A stretch of 64,000 nucleotides of DNA from Archangium sp. (GTDB taxonomy: Bacteria > Myxococcota > Myxococcia > Myxococcales > Myxococcaceae). Below the pieces are notes generated by a model. That model did no database searches, was not told the origin of the DNA, and saw only the letters and a list, made by a program, of their open reading frames with translations. Both the position numbers and the translations under genes were made by a program. Position 1 is the stretch's first letter; each line of letters opens with the position of its first letter. The stretch spans positions 1 through 64,000 of the forward strand of contig JAUYRZ010000105.1 in the NCBI GenBank assembly GCA_030695565.1, in the 5' to 3' direction. Shown here piece after piece: positions 27,343 through 36,382 of the stretch.

Positions 27343-29940
27343 TCAGTAATAGCAGTTGAGCGGGTCGTTATTTTCCATGCGCGGCGACTGGTAGACGTGC
27401 TCGTGCGGCACGATGCACTGGCCGGAGCCCGTGAGGTTCGCGCGCAGTTTTCCGGCCGCGCCGCCGCCACCACCACCGCCCGCTTCGAAGAACGAGTTCA
27501 TCCCGTCATCGAACTGCGTTCCTGAACGGCCGCCGTAGGCCGGGTTGTTGAGCGCTCCGCCCTGGCCACCGTTGCCGCCGTTGCCGCTGAAGCCAGCCCC
27601 CCCCGAGGCGCCCCAGAAGCCGAACTGACGATCACCGTCCGCGCCGTTCTGGCCGGCAGAGAGGCGGCCTGCACCTTCCCCACCACCACCGCCCACCGCG
27701 ATGAGCCGGGAGTTGCGGCCGAAGATGTAGGGGCCTTCGAGGAGAATGGTGCCGCCCGAGCCTGCGCCGCCACCGCCATTGGCCCCGATGCCGTTGCTGC
27801 CCGACCCGCGGCCTCCGCGCCCACCGATGCCGTTGGCGTAGATGCCCGCGCCGTCGATCGAGATGCCGTACGCCGAGCTGATCTGAATCGAGCCGCCACC
27901 AGCGCCGCCGATGCCACCTGCGTTGCCGCCGTTGCCACCTGAACACCCGCCGACCAGCGCGCCGCCTGAACCTGCGCGCTGCGCACCTGCGGCCGCGCCG
28001 CCCGTGAAGGTGCTGCCACCTCCGCCCGGCCCGCCGGGGCCCGTGTAGCCACCTGCGCCGCCGCCGCCTTCAGAGGAGTTGGTGCCCTGAATGCCGTTGC
28101 CGCCGTTGGCGCTGCCGCAGTTGTTGCTTCCTCCGGGGCCGGGCACGGGCGTGTTGCCCACCCAGGTCGCGGAGACGTCGATCACGCCGAAGATCTCCAC
28201 CGTCTCGGTCGCCGCGATGATGAGCGGCTTGTCGCCCACCACCTTCAATGAGCTGCCGGCCGGGAGGTCGAAGCCTTCAGAGCCGAGCACGACGGCCTGA
28301 CCGCCCTGGGGCAGGGTGATCAACGTGACCGTCGGGCGCGAGGCCTGCCAGCCGCCGGAGAACGTCTGCGTGGTGGTGTCGAAGCCGGCCGCTCCCATGA
28401 TCCCCACGCGGCCAACCGTGATGCCCACCGCCGCCGGATTGAAGTTCGAAGGCGTGAAGGTGAACATGCCCGTCGCTTGCGGAGGACCACAGGTGCCGTT
28501 GGGCAGGCAGACGTTGGTGCCGCCACACGTGTCACCCACCGCGGGCGGATAGATGCAGGTCGAACCGGAGCAGGTCACCCCCATCGTGCGCTGACACAGA
28601 CCGGGCGAGTTGCAGGTGACCGTCTGCGTGGGCGTGCACGCGAAGCTCACGCAGCGTTCGCCCGAGGTGCAGCTGTTGCCGTCGTTGCACGTCTGGTAGC
28701 TGCAGGCGGGATCGATGCAGTCCGGCATGCCGTTGCCGTCGTTGTCCATGCCGTCTGCGCAGGCCACTTCGGAGCACTGCGAGGGGAGGCAGGGGCCACC
28801 GACCACGCCGCCGTCAGGCAAGAAGATGAGGCCGCCGTCGGGGCCCGCGATGCCGAGCACGCCGCCGTCAGGGCCACGCACGACGCCGGTTCCCCCACCG
28901 CTTGAGCCACCCGAGCCACCTGAGCCGCCGGTTCCCGATCCGCCGCCCGTCCCAGTGCCGCCGCCCGTACCAGTGCCGCCGCCCGTCCCGGTGCCGCCGC
29001 CCGTCCCGGTGCCGCCGCCCGTCCCGGTGCCGCCGCCTGTCCCGGTGCCGCCGCCTGTCCCGGTGCCGCCACCGCTGCCGGAGTTACCCGCGAAGCAGAA
29101 ACCCGACTGACACGAATAGCCCGTGGGGCAGGTCACCGAAGCACACGCCACGTCGACGCAGGTGCCCGCCAGACCGCACGCCTGGCCGGAGGGGCACGCC
29201 GAGCCGCCTGCTCCGCACGACGAGGTCACGCACACGCCATCGCTGCACGCATTGCCCGCGGGGCAGGTGACGCCCACGCAGCGCGACTCGATGCAGCTGT
29301 TGTTGATGCACACCTGAATCGGAGTGCAGTTGCTCATGCACGCGAGGTTGCCCGCGCCGCTCCCTCCGCCCGTTCCAACTCCTCCTCCGGTGCCCGTTCC
29401 CCCCCCCGTACCGGTGCCGCCTCCCGTGCCACCAGGCGCAGGGCCCGTACCCGAGCCGCCGCCGTAACCACCCCGCGGGTAGCAAACGCCGTCAGCCGCG
29501 CAGCGCTCATCACCGCGGCAGGTCACGCCCAGACATTTGCGCGCGACGCACGCCTCGGCGACGCAGACCTCGGCCGAGGTGCACGAGCTGTTGGCGCACT
29601 GAGAAGCGAAGCACGCGCCCTGAATGCAGACGCCGCCGGGGCACGACTTGCCCACGCACGCGGTGTCGACGCAGCGGTTGTTCGAACACACCTGACCCGT
29701 GCTGCAGGTGCGGTTGGGGCAACTCGGAGGCAGGCATTTCCCGCCCAGGCAGGTGTCCCCCGCGGCACACGGCGTCGAAGGACAGCTGGTGGGGGACACA
29801 CAGACTTTCCCATCACCACACACCTGGTCGCCGGCGCAGTCAGCGGTGCTGTTGCAGCTGATCGGCTGGGTCTCACCGCAGTTGCAACCGGCGAAGAAGA
29901 GACCCGCAATCGCGAGCGCCACCAAGTGGAAATTCCGCAT
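27343..29940 (-). CDS. large Cys-rich, Gly-rich surface lipoprotein
   Basis: An 865-residue protein with a lipoprotein signal (MRNFHLVALAIAGLFFAGC, Cys19). Residues about 25-155 and 200-285 hold many Cys-rich modules with spacing like CxxxxCxxGxxCxxxxC (CNSTADCAGDQVC, SCPNRTCSTGQVCSNNRC). Low-complexity linkers of GTGTGG sextets separate them; the main one is encoded by the 18-base repeats at 28940-29065. A second Cys cluster (about 380-500) follows. The C-terminal part is a Gly-rich parallel-beta-like region (GGNGGNAGGIGGAGGG). This composition is typical of large myxobacterial surface lipoproteins. Adhesion or predation contact is a guess. Confidence 0.85.
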   Translation of the reverse strand: MRNFHLVALAIAGLFFAGCNCGETQPISCNSTADCAGDQVCGDGKVCVSPTSCPSTPCAAGDTCLGGKCLPPSCPNRTCSTGQVCSNNRCVDTACVGKSCPGGVCIQGACFASQCANSSCTSAEVCVAEACVARKCLGVTCRGDERCAADGVCYPRGGYGGGSGTGPAPGGTGGGTGTGGGTGTGGGVGTGGGSGAGNLACMSNCTPIQVCINNSCIESRCVGVTCPAGNACSDGVCVTSSCGAGGSACPSGQACGLAGTCVDVACASVTCPTGYSCQSGFCFAGNSGSGGGTGTGGGTGTGGGTGTGGGTGTGGGTGTGGGTGTGGGTGTGGGSGTGGSGGSGGSSGGGTGVVRGPDGGVLGIAGPDGGLIFLPDGGVVGGPCLPSQCSEVACADGMDNDGNGMPDCIDPACSYQTCNDGNSCTSGERCVSFACTPTQTVTCNSPGLCQRTMGVTCSGSTCIYPPAVGDTCGGTNVCLPNGTCGPPQATGMFTFTPSNFNPAAVGITVGRVGIMGAAGFDTTTQTFSGGWQASRPTVTLITLPQGGQAVVLGSEGFDLPAGSSLKVVGDKPLIIAATETVEIFGVIDVSATWVGNTPVPGPGGSNNCGSANGGNGIQGTNSSEGGGGAGGYTGPGGPGGGGSTFTGGAAAGAQRAGSGGALVGGCSGGNGGNAGGIGGAGGGSIQISSAYGISIDGAGIYANGIGGRGGRGSGSNGIGANGGGGAGSGGTILLEGPYIFGRNSRLIAVGGGGGEGAGRLSAGQNGADGDRQFGFWGASGGAGFSGNGGNGGQGGALNNPAYGGRSGTQFDDGMNSFFEAGGGGGGGAAGKLRANLTGSGQCIVPHEHVYQSPRMENNDPLNCYY
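28940..29065 (-). repeat. seven 18-base tandem repeats inside the lipoprotein gene
   Basis: Seven consecutive units of CCGCCGCCYGTMCCRGTG (plus-strand reading), with single-base differences, encode the GTGTGG sextet on the minus strand. Three units are identical (28976-29029). This is intragenic low-complexity DNA prone to copy-number change, not a CRISPR array: there are no spacers. Confidence 0.9.
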
Positions 29941-30100: not shown

Positions 30101-30889
30101 ATGAAGAAGCATCGTGAATCAGGTCAGGCCGCAGTCGAGACCGCGATCGTCATGCCTCTCTTCGTGTTCACCCTGCTGGGAATGCTCCAGCTGGGGTTGC
30201 TGCACCAGGCACGATTGCTCACCAAGTACGCCGCGTACAAGGCCGTGCGTGCAGGTTCGATCAACCGCGCCAAGGTCGACGTGATGGAGAACGCGGCCGT
30301 GGCGGTGATGTTGCCCATGCTGGCCAAGTCGTCGCCGCGCTGGTCGGGTGATGGCCGCCGGCAGCCGCAACACATGGTCTACAACGTGGGTTCGGCCAGC
30401 AAGTACAGTCAGGCGTTCTCCGACGTGGTGTCGTCGCGCGGCAACCAGGCCTTCGGCAAGAAGATGGTCGAGGTCACCATCTGCGGCCCGATCACCAACG
30501 ACGGCATGAACAAAGACTTCGACGATCACCGCGTGAACCCGGGCGACTGGAAGGCCTTCGAGGCCACCAAGCTGGGCATTCAGGTCACCACCTACCTGCC
30601 GCTCTACATCCCCTTCGCCAACGCCTTCATCTGGTGGGCAGCGCGTGGTGAAGAAGGCCCGGCCCGTGCGCTGGCGATGAAGAACCTGCGCATGAAGACC
30701 AAGACGAGTTCTGCCGAAGCACGCACCTCGCCCAACGGCTCGTGGACGCTCAAGGAGCTCCAGGGTGAAGCCGAGAACGGCAACTACATCATGCCGGTGC
30801 GGGCCTCCTTCTCGATGCGCATGCACTCCAACTTCGCGACCAATCCTCCCAGCACCAACGAGTGCCACATTCCCTGGAAGAAAAAATGA
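30101..30889 (+). CDS. TadE-like pseudopilin, first gene of a Tad-like cluster
   Basis: A 262-residue protein. After a short basic N-terminus, GQAAVETAIVMPLFVFTLLG (about 9-28) gives the TadE pattern: Gly, Ala, Val, Glu, then a membrane helix. LLHQARLLTKYAAYKAVRAG follows the helix as in TadE proteins. The rest is a large extracytoplasmic domain unlike standard TadE, ending SMRMHSNFATNPPSTNECHI. ATG 30101 is preferred over the longer frame from 30065. The stop overlaps the next gene by four bases. Confidence 0.8.
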   Translation: MKKHRESGQAAVETAIVMPLFVFTLLGMLQLGLLHQARLLTKYAAYKAVRAGSINRAKVDVMENAAVAVMLPMLAKSSPRWSGDGRRQPQHMVYNVGSASKYSQAFSDVVSSRGNQAFGKKMVEVTICGPITNDGMNKDFDDHRVNPGDWKAFEATKLGIQVTTYLPLYIPFANAFIWWAARGEEGPARALAMKNLRMKTKTSSAEARTSPNGSWTLKELQGEAENGNYIMPVRASFSMRMHSNFATNPPSTNECHIPWKKK

Positions 30890-32358
30890 CCAGAACCCTC
30901 ACTCCTCCTCGTGGCCAGGTTCTTCCCCTCGCGTGCGTCGTGCTGTTGACGTGCGCCGTGATGATGATGGCCAGCTTCTCAGTGGCCAACGCGGTGCACG
31001 AACGCACCCGCATTCAGGCAGCGGCCGACGCGCATGCGTTCAGCGTCGCGACCTTGCAGGCCCGCGGCTTCAACACGATGGCGTTCATGAACCGCGCGAT
31101 CGCCGGTGCGATCGTGGCTGAGATGGGCATTCACGCCTGGCGATCGCTCGCCCGGCACAACGTGAACATGTACCAGGCCGGCATGATCGCCTTCTTCGTG
31201 GTCGCCGCGATGGAGTTCGCCCAGTGCCCGAAGTTCAAACTGCAGCACTGCGTGCACGGCTTTCAGGCCCTGAAGATCGCCTTCAAATACATGAAGGAAT
31301 ACAAGAACAAGAAGAGCGAGCTCGAGGGCAAGGACCAGCAGTGGAAAGACGCGGTCAAGGCGTACAGCGAGCTCATCAAGAAGATCAACGGCGACCAGAA
31401 GAAGATCCTCGACAAGGTGAAGGGCGAGATCGGGTCGACCAGCATCACCCTCAATCAGATGCTGAACCAGACAGCCCCCAAGGCCTCGTTGAGCATGGCG
31501 GTGGCCGACTACAACGTGAAGGGCTTCGCCTGCGCGCTCGAGGGGTCGAACTTCGACGACAAGTGTGAAGCCCCTTCGTGGAAGAGCGTGGGCTCGGTCT
31601 CCAGCGCCAGCGATCGCACCAAGGTGATGGAGAGCGCCGCCATGGCCGCCCGCACCAAGTGGGAGTCGGGCACCTTCTTCGAGCGCAGCGCCTCCGACAC
31701 CGGCTACCGCGGCAACATCCCCATCGGCATCCCCGTCTACAACCCGAGCAAGATGATGGATATCCAAGGCGAGGGGACCTACATGTTCGTCGGTCTCTCC
31801 AACAAGGCGTCTGTCAGCAACAACAAGATCAGCTCCTCCTCCGGCATGGGCTTTGGCATGGTGCAGTGGAAGCACGGCGTCGGCCCGCTGATCGTGATGA
31901 GCGGCTCGCCCCCCTCGTCGAGCGAATACGAAGGGGTGCCCTGCGATGGCAGCGGCGGCTGCTTCATCAACTTCCGCCTGGCCACCCAGGGCGGTGAGAC
32001 CGACTACGGGCAGCCCGCGACCTACGGCGGGGTGACTCAAGACTTGCGCAAGATGCGCCAGCGCGACGAGCAGCCCTGGGAGATCAACGGCACCGGCGAA
32101 GTGAAGATGCCCAACGGTGAGGGCAAGTTCAAATACGTGCCCGAAGGCCAGGGCTACGGCGTGGCGAAGGCCAAGACGTACTTCCACCAGCTCGACAGCT
32201 GGGCGGCGCCGCCGAACCTGTTCGACCCGTTCTGGCGTGCGAAGCTGCACCCCTTCGTGCGAGATGAACTCAAGGAGATCCTCCAGAAGGTGGGCGACTC
32301 CAACGGCTCACAGATCATCGGTGCAGGTCAGACCGCAGTGGAAGGAGTGGTCAATTGA
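30886..32358 (+). CDS. TadG-like protein with N-terminal Tad domain
   Basis: A 490-residue protein. Residues 1-60 match the TadG/Tad N-terminal helix: PRGQVLPLACVVLLTCAVM and a following segment rich in Ala/Asn with RIQAAADAHAFSVATLQAR, the usual ADAAAL-like stretch. The remaining domain is large, with alternating charged and Gly/Ser-rich parts (SNNKISSSSGMGFGMVQW). ATGA overlap with the previous gene and TTGA overlap with the next one show tight coupling. It is predicted to be an inner-membrane pseudopilin-like component; the substrate is unknown. Confidence 0.75.
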   Translation: MTRTLTPPRGQVLPLACVVLLTCAVMMMASFSVANAVHERTRIQAAADAHAFSVATLQARGFNTMAFMNRAIAGAIVAEMGIHAWRSLARHNVNMYQAGMIAFFVVAAMEFAQCPKFKLQHCVHGFQALKIAFKYMKEYKNKKSELEGKDQQWKDAVKAYSELIKKINGDQKKILDKVKGEIGSTSITLNQMLNQTAPKASLSMAVADYNVKGFACALEGSNFDDKCEAPSWKSVGSVSSASDRTKVMESAAMAARTKWESGTFFERSASDTGYRGNIPIGIPVYNPSKMMDIQGEGTYMFVGLSNKASVSNNKISSSSGMGFGMVQWKHGVGPLIVMSGSPPSSSEYEGVPCDGSGGCFINFRLATQGGETDYGQPATYGGVTQDLRKMRQRDEQPWEINGTGEVKMPNGEGKFKYVPEGQGYGVAKAKTYFHQLDSWAAPPNLFDPFWRAKLHPFVRDELKEILQKVGDSNGSQIIGAGQTAVEGVVN

Positions 32359-33515
32359 AGCCCTCGATGCTCCGAAAGCGTGGCGCTGCCGCGGTCGAAC
32401 TCGCGGTCACCATGGTGCTGCTGGTTCCGCTCATCCTCTACACGCTCTTCCTGGAAGACCTGCTCGCCTACAAGCTGGAGAGCCAGGAGCCGACCGTCAC
32501 CGCGGGTTGGGACTACATCACCAACGACTACATGCGCGGCCGCAAGGACATCGGTCGTTTGAACCGCCTCAAGTTCTGCGATCACTCCGCGGCGTTCGAC
32601 AGCTTCGATGTCGGCTACGACTGCAACGGTGTCGACACCGGCGGCAGCGGCAGCGAAGACACGGGTGCCGGCAGCGGTGCGGTCGACGTGACCGGCGGGT
32701 CGGGTGGTGGCGGTGCCAAGGGTCACCATCAGGCGGGCGCAGCTCACCAGTGCTGGCTCGTCCCCGGTGCCGATCAGGTGCGTTGCAGCATCGACTCCAC
32801 GGGCGGGGCCATGGCCACCATGGTGGGCACTGCGGCCCCCATGTACACGGCCTCGGGTTGGAACAAGGGCGGCATCGTGACCTGCAAGGCCAAGCTGGGG
32901 GTGATGAACTACATGCTCCCGATGAAGTTCATGGAGTGGGCGGGCAAGAACGACGTGAGCAACAAGGGCCGCAACAGCGCGGGCGCCGGCGACAACGCGA
33001 CCTTCACCCAGATCGACGCGGCCACCAAAGACACCACGGTGCACGACGACAAGAACAACGCGGGCAACGCGTGGGTGCTCACCGAAGAGACGTTCGCGGT
33101 GATGGCCGACCCCTGGGCGCTCAACGACATCGAAGACGTCGACCCCAGCAAGGGCTCGCCGATGACCTCGTTCCTCAAGCCCGGCATGATCCCCGGCCAG
33201 GACATCTACCACCCGCTGCTCGACCGCTCGGGCCACTACTACAACCGCTATGCGGGCGACGCGAACAGCAAGGCCAAAGACTGGTTCGACAACAGCGCCA
33301 TCAGCGGCAGCAACGGCCTGCTCAACAAGTCGGTGCTCTTCGGCGCAGCGCACGACGGCATCGCGGGCATGGGCGGCGACAACCCGGCCTCGCTCCCGGT
33401 GAAGTGGGAAGCCGCGCCCAGCCGCCCCGGCGATCCCGATGGCTACGCCTCGGGGTGGGCAGATCAGCGGCAGTCGCAGGCGTCGAGTTCGCGCAGCCAG
33501 TATCCATGGCAGTAA
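32355..33515 (+). CDS. second TadE-like protein
   Basis: A 386-residue protein starting at TTG 32355, or at ATG 32367, four codons later. The N-terminus KRGAAAVELAVTMVLLVPL is TadE-like, with the Glu after AAV and a following membrane helix. A Gly/Ser-rich linker (GGSGSEDTGAGSGAVDVTGG, about 95-115) precedes a long extracytoplasmic domain. It overlaps the next gene by ten bases. A role with the other TadE-like gene in one assembly is inferred from the gene order. Confidence 0.75.
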   Translation: MKPSMLRKRGAAAVELAVTMVLLVPLILYTLFLEDLLAYKLESQEPTVTAGWDYITNDYMRGRKDIGRLNRLKFCDHSAAFDSFDVGYDCNGVDTGGSGSEDTGAGSGAVDVTGGSGGGGAKGHHQAGAAHQCWLVPGADQVRCSIDSTGGAMATMVGTAAPMYTASGWNKGGIVTCKAKLGVMNYMLPMKFMEWAGKNDVSNKGRNSAGAGDNATFTQIDAATKDTTVHDDKNNAGNAWVLTEETFAVMADPWALNDIEDVDPSKGSPMTSFLKPGMIPGQDIYHPLLDRSGHYYNRYAGDANSKAKDWFDNSAISGSNGLLNKSVLFGAAHDGIAGMGGDNPASLPVKWEAAPSRPGDPDGYASGWADQRQSQASSSRSQYPWQ

Positions 33516-34360
33516 CGAAGAGCCCGGCCAGCTGGAGCTTCGGTCGCATCATTCTCCTCACCGCGGTGGTGGGGGCCGTGGCGGGCGTGGTGCTCGCGCG
33601 CAGTCGTGAAGATGATCGGCCTCCCGAGGAGATCGCGGAAGCAGAGGTCAACAAGGTCATGCTCGCCAACGAAGAGACCGACTCGACCGCGATGGAGCCC
33701 GACCCCCGGTCGTTGGCCGGCATCCCTCCGTACCCGGGCGCGTCACCTCGCAAGCTGACCTCGAGCGGCACGTTGCCCGGCGCACCGATGGTGGTCTCCT
33801 GGTTCTCCACGGTCGACCCGCCCGAGCGGGTGCTCGCGTTCTACGCCAAGGCCTTCGAGGCCGAACACCGGGTGGCGGTGGCGCAGCAGTTCTCGCCGAC
33901 CATGGGCTACATCGGGTGGATGGAAGACGCCGCCGACGGTGGGGCGGGGTTGCTGCACATGGTCTCGGTGAGCAAGCAGTACACCCAGACGATGGTGTTG
34001 CTCTCGGCCTCACACCCCGAGACGCTGGTCGACAATCGGGCGGTGCTTCCCGGTGGGTTGCAGTTGCCTGCCTACTCGAGCAGCCCTCAGATGGTGAAGA
34101 TGGGCGAAGGCGCGATGGCCAGTGAAGTCATCTACGCGCGGGTCTCGAATATGAGCGGGCCTGAGGTCGTCAGCCACTTCGAGCGCCAATTCAAGGAGCG
34201 CGGTTTCACCATCACCGAGTCAGGCTCAACGGCCGCACAGTTTTCGGTTGTGGGCACCAAGGCTGGAACTACCATCGTCGTCGGCGCTCGCAACGAGGGC
34301 GCCCACATCTCCATCGTCCTCACGTATTCGCGGAACCAAGCCCCAGGAGCATTCCCATGA
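33506..34360 (+). CDS. membrane-anchored protein of the Tad-like cluster
   Basis: A 284-residue protein with one N-terminal membrane helix (FGRIILLTAVVGAVAGVVLA, about 12-31) and an extracytoplasmic domain. The pattern MVVSWFSTVDPPERVLAFYAKAFEA suggests an alpha/beta fold occurring twice: EVIYARVSNMSGPEVVSHFERQFKERGFTIT repeats the same layout. I cannot name the family. The start overlaps the TadE-like gene by ten bases and the stop overlaps the Cys-rich gene by four (ATGA), so it belongs to the same operon. Confidence 0.7.
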   Translation: MAVTKSPASWSFGRIILLTAVVGAVAGVVLARSREDDRPPEEIAEAEVNKVMLANEETDSTAMEPDPRSLAGIPPYPGASPRKLTSSGTLPGAPMVVSWFSTVDPPERVLAFYAKAFEAEHRVAVAQQFSPTMGYIGWMEDAADGGAGLLHMVSVSKQYTQTMVLLSASHPETLVDNRAVLPGGLQLPAYSSSPQMVKMGEGAMASEVIYARVSNMSGPEVVSHFERQFKERGFTITESGSTAAQFSVVGTKAGTTIVVGARNEGAHISIVLTYSRNQAPGAFP

Positions 34361-34578
34361 AGTGGCTCATCGTCGGTCTCTCACTCTCTCTGGGCGGTGC
34401 GGCGTTCGCGGCTGATCGCTGCGAGGCAGACTGCGCCGATGTGGTGCAGCAGTGCTCCGACACCTGCAAGAAGGCGCTGAAGAAGGACGCCCCCGACAAG
34501 ATCAGTTTCTGCCAGGACAAGTGCAAGGAGTTCGCAAATGAGTGCAAAAAAGAGTGCGCCGCTGACAAGAAGAAGTGA
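34357..34578 (+). CDS. small secreted Cys-rich protein
   Basis: A 73-residue protein: signal peptide MKWLIVGLSLSLGGAAFA, then about 55 residues with eight cysteines spaced mostly by three (CEADCADVVQQCSDTCKKAL, then FCQDKC, ECKKEC). This looks like a helical hairpin held by disulfides. It overlaps the upstream gene (ATGA) and its 3' end overlaps the pilin-like gene by 41 bases. A role as a chaperone, pilin partner or secreted factor is possible but not supported by any motif. Confidence 0.7.
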   Translation: MKWLIVGLSLSLGGAAFAADRCEADCADVVQQCSDTCKKALKKDAPDKISFCQDKCKEFANECKKECAADKKK

Positions 34579-34750
34579 CGTCGTCCGCTCATCGCCGCGT
34601 GGTCAGGCGATGGTCGAATACAGCGTGGTCACCCACTTTCTCCTCATCGGAGGCACGCTCGCGCTCATGCCGGTGATGTCGATTTTGTACGACAGCCTGA
34701 GCAAGTACTACGAGAGCATCTTCTTCGTGCTCTCCACGGGCGCTGTCTAA
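34538..34750 (+). CDS. Flp-like small pilin-type protein
   Basis: A 70-residue protein with a basic N-terminus ending at RGQAMVEYSVVTHFLLIGG, matching the Flp/TadE pattern with Glu after the Gly-containing leader. The rest is one hydrophobic helix and a short polar tail ending in LSTGAV. Flp pilins are about this length with G-AxxE at the cleavage site, so it is a candidate major subunit. It starts 41 bases inside the Cys-rich gene, an unusually long overlap; no later in-frame start removes it while keeping the leader. Confidence 0.7.
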   Translation: MSAKKSAPLTRRSDVVRSSPRGQAMVEYSVVTHFLLIGGTLALMPVMSILYDSLSKYYESIFFVLSTGAV

Positions 34751-34792: not shown

Positions 34793-36295
34793 TCACTCGA
34801 CCTCGCCGAGGTTTTCCAGATTGGCGAGGAGCCCCCGGCTCATCGAGAAGCAGGGGTGTTCTTTCTCGAAGTACGACGGGATGTCCTGGAGCACCCGGCG
34901 CGCCGCCGCGGTGTTCGGATATTTCTGGTTCATCTCGCGCTGGTAGCTGACCAGCATCAAGGCGCACTTCTTGTCGAGCTCGGGGCGGATCTCCTTCATG
35001 CGCGCGCGGGCGTGCTGGAGCAGCTCGTCGGGGCGGCCCGGCGTGGCCTCGAGCAGCAACCAGGCATCGCGGTACTGCTTCCACGAGCGGAACAGGTTCA
35101 TCGCGCCCACGCCGCGCAGCTCGTAGAGCTTGCCGGCGCGTTCGAGGTCTTCCTTCGCGCGGCGGCCCGCTTCATCGGCGCTCATCTGCGGCACGGGGAT
35201 CACCTCGACCCAGAGATTCCAGATCTTCCAGGGATCGTTCGCCGGCGGGTTGGTCACGTTGTCGAACACCACCTCGTTGGGCTCATTGACCTTCACCTGG
35301 CCCGCGGGGAGCACCACCTCGAGCTGCCGGTTGTCCACGTCGACGGTGTCAGCGGGCACGGTGCTCAGCTGGGTGCCGTTGAGCTCGATGCTCACCTCGT
35401 CTTTGCCGCAGTCGCGCGCCTGGTAGTGCAGCACGCCGACGATCGCGGTGGGCGCGGCGAAGGTGAAGGTGAACGACTTCATGTCGGGCCGGGGAAAGTC
35501 GATGCCGTCGCCTTCGCCGAACGACTCGACGATGGGATCTCCATTGGGCACCAATTCGTCAGGTTCGTTCCTCTTCACGTCGCGGCGCGGAATCATCGCC
35601 GAGACCAGCGCGCCCAACAGGCCGACGATCACCAGTGAGCCGATGAGGCCCACCACGATGCGGGTGGGTTTGGGGAACTCCTGCCAGAGCACCTGCAGCT
35701 TGCCCAGGTTGGAGCGCTGCAGCTCGCGGCGTTCACGCGCCCGATCGGCGGCGGTGGGCAGCAGCGGTGCTTCGTCGACCACCGGCTCGGGCGAGGTGAC
35801 CGGGATCACCTTCGAGGGCTTCCTGAGCACGGCACCCCGCGGTGCGGTCGGCTCGATGGCCTGCCGGCCCGGGTCGGTCGGCTTCCTCGGTTTGGCGACG
35901 CCTGCGACCGCCGGTTTGCGGGGCGGCTTGCCCTGCGGCTTGAGCAGCGTTGCGTTGGGATCTTCGTCGTCGTCTTCGCCCGCGAGGGTGGACGAGGGCC
36001 CCCCGGCAGCCACGAACTCCAGCACCACGCCGCCGATGGCGATCACATCTCCGGCCTCGAGCTGCACGGGCGCCTTGAGCGGGCGATCGTTCAAGGTGGT
36101 GCCGTTGGCGCTCTTGAGATCCTCCACGAAGACGAGGCCCTCTTCTTCGTAGACGCGGGCATGGCTGCGAGAAGACGAAGGGTCCCGAATCACCACGTCG
36201 TTGTCGGCGGTGCGGCCAAGGCGCACCTCGCCGCCGTCGAAGGAGAGATCTTCGGGGGCGTCGTCGCCTTGGGTGACTCGAAGGGTGAATGCCAC
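34793..36295 (-). CDS. FHA-domain membrane protein
   Basis: About 500 residues. Residues 1-90 form a canonical FHA domain that binds phosphothreonine peptides: LGRTADNDVVI, the SRSHARV core (42-48) and LKSANGTTLND. A Pro/Lys-rich linker follows, then one membrane helix (about 225-247, VVGLIGSLVIVGLLGALVSA). The extracytoplasmic part contains beta-sandwich-like segments (FTFTFAAPTAIVGVLHYQAR, VRVNEPNEVVFDNVTNPP-like) and a helical end. GTG 36295 gives MAFTLRVTQGDD, the likely start; an ATG at 36316 adds seven residues. It is divergent from the methyltransferase gene and convergent with the Tad-like cluster. Confidence 0.82.
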   Translation of the reverse strand: MAFTLRVTQGDDAPEDLSFDGGEVRLGRTADNDVVIRDPSSSRSHARVYEEEGLVFVEDLKSANGTTLNDRPLKAPVQLEAGDVIAIGGVVLEFVAAGGPSSTLAGEDDDEDPNATLLKPQGKPPRKPAVAGVAKPRKPTDPGRQAIEPTAPRGAVLRKPSKVIPVTSPEPVVDEAPLLPTAADRARERRELQRSNLGKLQVLWQEFPKPTRIVVGLIGSLVIVGLLGALVSAMIPRRDVKRNEPDELVPNGDPIVESFGEGDGIDFPRPDMKSFTFTFAAPTAIVGVLHYQARDCGKDEVSIELNGTQLSTVPADTVDVDNRQLEVVLPAGQVKVNEPNEVVFDNVTNPPANDPWKIWNLWVEVIPVPQMSADEAGRRAKEDLERAGKLYELRGVGAMNLFRSWKQYRDAWLLLEATPGRPDELLQHARARMKEIRPELDKKCALMLVSYQREMNQKYPNTAAARRVLQDIPSYFEKEHPCFSMSRGLLANLENLGEVE

Positions 36296-36382
36296 GGCCA
36301 AAGGGCAATACAGCAAGACCGTCTGGTCAAGCAGGTCGATACTGCTTTTCGATCAGGGGGCGGGGGCGTAGGCGGTGCGCCC

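Follow-up and report, generated by a model that had tools for sequence, protein, structure and literature searches.

Which machine would be served by a set of Tad-like pilins encoded without a motor of their own is the question raised by six overlapping genes of Archangium sp., g1 to g6, located on the plus strand at positions 30101-34750 of the window, i.e. the whole 64,000-nucleotide stretch of DNA analysed. The initial annotation regarded them as an uncharacterised surface or secretion assembly that borrows its motor from elsewhere. A 2025 study described this type of cluster as a Tip of the Kil pilus, the predation pilus of M. xanthus, which has tip3 among its Tips (Herrou 2025, PMC12075869), so "uncharacterised" no longer holds. 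In Myxococcus-type predators this pilus gets pushed into prey cells, and its tips are interchangeable (PMC12075869). M. xanthus has four Tips, each formed by three minor pilins, KilL, KilM and KilN, which are homologues of TadE, TadF and TadG. The genes of three Tips lie apart from those of the machine, and in the tip3 cluster there is in addition a 59-aa Flp adapter, KilO (mxan_1150) (PMC12075869). The features of the locus are the following:

30101-30889, + strand: g1, TadE-like minor pilin of 262 aa, KilM3-like by position (PF07811, E=3e-11; tree 99/99)
30886-32358, + strand: g2, large TadG-like minor pilin of 490 aa, KilN3-like (PF13400; alignment; tree 99/99)
32355-33515, + strand: g3, third minor pilin of 386 aa with a TTG start, KilL3-like (G-x4-E motif and hydrophobic helix; HMM E=9e-49)
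33506-34360, + strand: g4, Tip-associated protein with a predicted N-terminal membrane anchor and two predicted tandem periplasmic DcrB/Eag-like domains (conservation, AlphaFold, fold matches)
34357-34578, + strand: g5, small secreted Cys-rich protein with four CX3C motifs and a predicted helical hairpin (alignment; model)
34538-34750, + strand: g6, Flp-type small pilin of 70 aa, KilO-like adapter (G-x4-E motif; HMM E=3e-18)
34793-36316, - strand: linked FHA gene, encoding an FHA domain, one transmembrane helix and a periplasmic part, in a YscD/GltG-like layout (PF00498, PF16697)

Gene content and pilin-type helices

The coordinates confirm that the six genes overlap end to end, by 4, 4, 10, 4 and 41 bp successively, and the third-position GC content, 0.77-0.89 in the coding frames, is 0.42-0.62 when the frame is shifted either way. 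Each of the six reading frames is intact, and the identity to genus mates is 62-87%, the named relatives of the genus being environmental Archangium-like MAGs and the source genome itself a 134-contig draft.

Two of the genes were recognised by Pfam. The g1 product scores over the cut-off for TadE, and g2 matches PF13400 (Tad/TadG) at E=5e-4, slightly below the cut-off as a lone protein and above it in the genome scan. Both g3 and g6 carry the prepilin G-x4-E motif, GAAAVE in g3, followed by a hydrophobic helix, while g2 has no Glu at +5, as is also the case for its M. xanthus homologue. In Pfam and NCBIfam no family was found for g3, g4 and g6 (with no meaningful NCBIfam match for g3 and g6), and g5 gave weak low-complexity matches only. 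HMMs built solely from Tip3 clusters of genera other than that of the window matched exactly five of its 443 open reading frames, namely g1, g2, g3, g4 and g6 (E=5e-77 to 3e-18), and this selectivity indicates that the pilin calls are not due to chance. Thus, the proposed inventory of two TadE-like, one TadG-like and one Flp-like protein is borne out, and the outcome that would have spoken against it, four helices with no HMM match at all, was not observed, since g1 and g2 are matched by Pfam and all four by the Tip3 HMMs. The three adjacent TadE/TadG-type minor pilins g1-g3, each with an N-terminal pilin helix, have the composition of a Kil Tip.

Relationship to the tip3 cluster of M. xanthus

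In a search of the order, 114 of 145 genomes contained a homologue of g2. Two Myxococcus-like genomes have TadE/TadG pairs at about 0.41-0.45, 0.87-0.88, 1.41 and 5.74-5.80 Mb, and genome G118 has one pair beyond those at the four shared map positions. Among these clusters of the two genomes only the one at 1.41 Mb has the layout of the window, ending in a 59-aa Flp. The maximum-likelihood trees of g1 and g2, for both of which the program issued a long-branch warning, group the window with this KilO-bearing cluster with 99/99 support in each case, and place the Tip4 clade of kil cluster II, like the two clades from 0.4-0.9 Mb, apart from it. The second TadE/TadG pair of the same Archangium genome, on contig 104, groups with the 0.41/0.87-Mb Tips.

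The same order, g1-g2-g3-g4-Flp, is found in M. xanthus AM003, in which the Flp has 59 aa, as published for KilO; g1 is 45%, g2 28% and g6, compared with this Flp, 39% identical to the corresponding proteins. A g3 homologue occupies the same place in the Tip3 loci, g4 follows g3 in 35 of 35 Tip3-type loci and g6 is retained in 34 of them, the exception stopping at a contig edge. The anticipated co-conservation of the genes is seen across the Myxococcaceae. In kil cluster II of Myxococcus, pilins of 329, 694 and 397 aa are followed by a g4 homologue, one further gene and a 75-aa Flp in the place of KilK, an order from which we infer the equivalence of g1 with KilM, g2 with KilN and g3 with KilL. 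The large exported domains, previously taken as different from those of known TadE/TadG, belong to the KilN/KilL family.

The window cluster and M. xanthus Tip3 (KilL3, KilM3, KilN3 and KilO) have in common the gene order, the three minor pilins, an Flp adapter within the cluster, here g6, a site apart from the Kil core and the position in the trees; they differ in the additional CX3C gene g5 and in their overall identity of 24-45%. The cluster of Kil Tip4 (kil cluster II, mxan_4658-4660 region) shares the succession of TadE, TadG and third pilin, then the g4 homologue and later an Flp, but it forms a separate clade, adjoins core genes and is absent from the genome of the window. We consider it very probable, as judged from sequence comparison, that the cluster represents a tip operon of the Kil pilus, orthologous to tip3, a label which rests on Flp length, position and tree, and which concerns the identity of the Tip, apart from the roles of g4 and g5. 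So read, it is a divergent Kil Tip3, hence a system of known type, with an undescribed accessory family. The Tip3 set is now extended to a distant myxobacterial genus, in which the low identity to M. xanthus (24-45%) means that the prey range, and even the purpose, may differ.

The g4 family and the small Cys-rich protein

A profile of g4 detects a homologue behind the third pilin in each Tip cluster type examined (Tip1, Tip2, Tip4 and the fifth type), and in whole-genome searches of four genomes its matches are confined to Tip loci. The Tip1/2 version is homologous to g4 (hhalign P=97.4, E=1e-11). The family, which accompanies all these Tip types, is conserved, has no family name and is apparently undescribed: neither Kil paper refers to the gene in its main text, and a literature search with the presumed locus tags MXAN_1151 and MXAN_4657 found no paper.

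The aligned members have one N-terminal membrane helix, and the prediction for g4 is a periplasmic protein anchored in the membrane. In the AlphaFold model (pLDDT 83.8) two successive domains with the same strand-helix order are predicted, whose best structural matches are PA1624, DcrB, SciW and EagT6 (Z 11.8 to 8.6). The modelled domain 2 would have a DcrB/Eag-like fold (DcrB, Z 10.7, 2.3 Å over 92 residues; SciW, 9.1; EagT6, 8.6), and domain 1 matches this fold less well. The Foldseek matches reach E values of only 0.006-0.03, and at the sequence level a tandem duplication finds modest support (hhalign P about 80). None of 29 family members scanned against Pfam gave a DcrB/DUF1795 match, and the g4 profile matched no solved structure below E=0.4.

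SciW and EagT6 serve the T6SS as chaperones, and as dimers they hold the transmembrane helices of effectors. Given that the predicted fold resembles that of helix-binding chaperones and that the minor pilins carry a hydrophobic N-terminal helix, a chaperone present once per Tip type is our preferred role for g4, which could shield the hydrophobic alpha-1 helix of each cognate pilin until the tip is assembled, as fold and conserved position would suggest, its tandem DcrB/Eag-like domains working as a built-in dimer. On the modelled structure such a Tip-specific function is possible, though doubtful. There are differences from the Eag (DUF1795) proteins EagT6 and SciW, with which domain 2 shares its predicted fold and, hypothetically, the handling of hydrophobic helices: g4 is, by prediction, membrane-anchored, periplasmic and tandem, gives no sequence match to them and is encoded beside pilins instead of T6SS effectors. 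About as likely, and hence equally tentative, is that g4 is a fixed periplasmic subunit for docking or gating, by which each Tip would be coupled to one of three partners, the secretin, CpaB or the needleless T3SS. Its membrane anchor, the presence of one copy per Tip type and the reported Tip-specific dependence on the T3SS, KilA and KilK/KilO (PMC12075869) agree with a docking function, against which stands the resemblance to helix-binding chaperones, although DcrB/Mog1/PsbP-type folds serve many functions, a point that also weakens the chaperone reading. The more general form of the chaperone proposal, according to which every Kil Tip would have a dedicated membrane-anchored periplasmic chaperone, a fused DcrB/Eag-like tandem holding the alpha-1 helices of the three minor pilins until pilus loading, is speculative and we consider it rather unlikely. 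If true, the g4 family would be the pilus counterpart of the T6SS Eag chaperones, and a separate chaperone for each Tip would account for the coexistence of several Tips that do not mix.

The g5 protein has four CX3C motifs whose spacing is conserved in the alignment, and its model (pLDDT 75.8) predicts two helices, for which a fold search gave nothing significant. Relatives of g5 occur in about half of the Tip3 clusters and also in Tip1/2-type clusters, and are absent from tip3 of M. xanthus. One Cys-rich relative matched PF07822, an invertebrate neurotoxin family, which we took as a coincidence of Cys spacing. Small CX3C-repeat proteins with a spacing unlike that of g5 are also encoded in Tip1/2-type clusters (L143, 9637-10047; L147, 9861-10205; L153, 3564-3860).

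The Kil machine, the proposed tip and its neighbours

As first noted, no motor is encoded in the window: it contains neither T2SSE nor T2SSF matches and no further TadE or Tad match, all the others being on other contigs. The idea of a motor borrowed from a distance is supported by the Kil core genes of the same genome. On contig 112, Kil cluster I comprises an A24 prepilin peptidase, a secretin, an FHA+T2SSE fusion and a double-FHA protein, the FHA-ATPase fusion being the stated peculiarity of KilF and a published Kil signature. On contig 131, Kil cluster II comprises a sigma factor, an anti-sigma factor, a KilK-like Flp, a CpaB named by sequence and position without an HMM, two single-domain T2SSF proteins (TadB/C) and an FHA protein. 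The six-gene cluster is not a complete Tad pilus locus, which would hold ATPase, TadB/C, secretin and prepilin peptidase together, these genes being divided between contigs 112 and 131. The T2SSE matches on C40, C28, C110 (60 kb) and C104 (51-53 kb) were discarded as motors because they are PilT-type genes in unrelated surroundings. The published length of the major pilin KilP is 97 aa, and close homologues of the 97-aa Flp of G118 are present in the genome of the window, which thus has both the Kil core (FHA-ATPase, secretin, A24 peptidase, CpaB, TadB/C) and KilP. Two near-identical KilP-like genes are found on contigs 65 and 130 of G000, each locus cut by the contig end, and they may reflect a duplication or else a repeat in the assembly. 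Directly observed here are the order of the genes, their homology and phylogeny, and a genome that encodes both the motor and the major pilin.

We propose that g1, g2 and g3, assigned by gene order to KilM3, KilN3 and KilL3, would form a heterotrimer after prepilin cleavage, as expected from the work on M. xanthus, g2 being expected as the outermost part. By the same analogy, the helices of the trimer would dock at the KilP pilus terminus via the Flp adapter g6 (KilO), and upon prey contact the pilus would be polymerised by the machine encoded on the other contigs, formed by FHA-ATPase, TadB/C, CpaB, secretin and A24 peptidase. The weakest step is that of g5, which probably aids folding or disulphide formation of a Cys-containing tip. 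The killing of prey by a pilus with this tip would be expected from M. xanthus.

A Tip3-derived cluster that drifted in this genus to adhesion or another non-predatory role is unlikely. Such a drift would agree with a strongly diverged KilN3, with the presence of just two TadE/TadG pairs in the genome and with the absence of Tip4 next to KilK, where on contig 131 the interval between anti-sigma factor and KilK, occupied by Tip4 in Myxococcus, is empty; however, the full Kil core, KilP and the export-gate homologues, with three FliP-type matches, are retained. With two Tips only and no Tip4 by the core genes, the genome offers a simpler natural system for the study of Tip roles. Less probable still is an independent, uncharacterised surface or secretion assembly merely using Tad-like pilins: although the identity to M. 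xanthus is low and g3, g4, g5 and g6 match no named family, it is opposed by the KilO-bearing Myxococcus cluster, which is orthologous and syntenic, and by the Kil core genes of the same genome, including the diagnostic FHA-ATPase. A decayed, non-functional Tad remnant, which the lack of a motor gene in the window might suggest, is contradicted by the intact frames, the strong third-position GC signal and the conservation in genus mates, and can practically be dismissed.

The FHA gene at 34793-36316 (- strand) has a homologue inside an approximately 11-kb Tip3 locus in about ten other species, placed either convergently or upstream on the same strand. It is probably an accessory gene outside the operon, and may possibly link Tip3 to the needleless T3SS or to contact signalling. 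On the other side, divergent from the tip operon, an 865-aa secreted Cys-rich protein with long Gly/Thr repeats is encoded at 27343-29940 (- strand), and homologues of it lie upstream of Tip3 in genus mates.

Additional TadE/TadG/pilin clusters were observed in some Myxococcus- and Corallococcus-like genomes (L145, L151/L152), the clearest being L145 and L151, where the cluster includes a g4 homologue together with an Flp of 66-76 aa; they may correspond to the "fifth" Tip of which the Kil paper speaks (PMC12075869). A Myxococcaceae-like tip3 cluster with 70% identity to the Myxococcus query is also found in a record titled Comamonas sp. KCTC 72670 (L178), which is probably mislabelled or contaminated.
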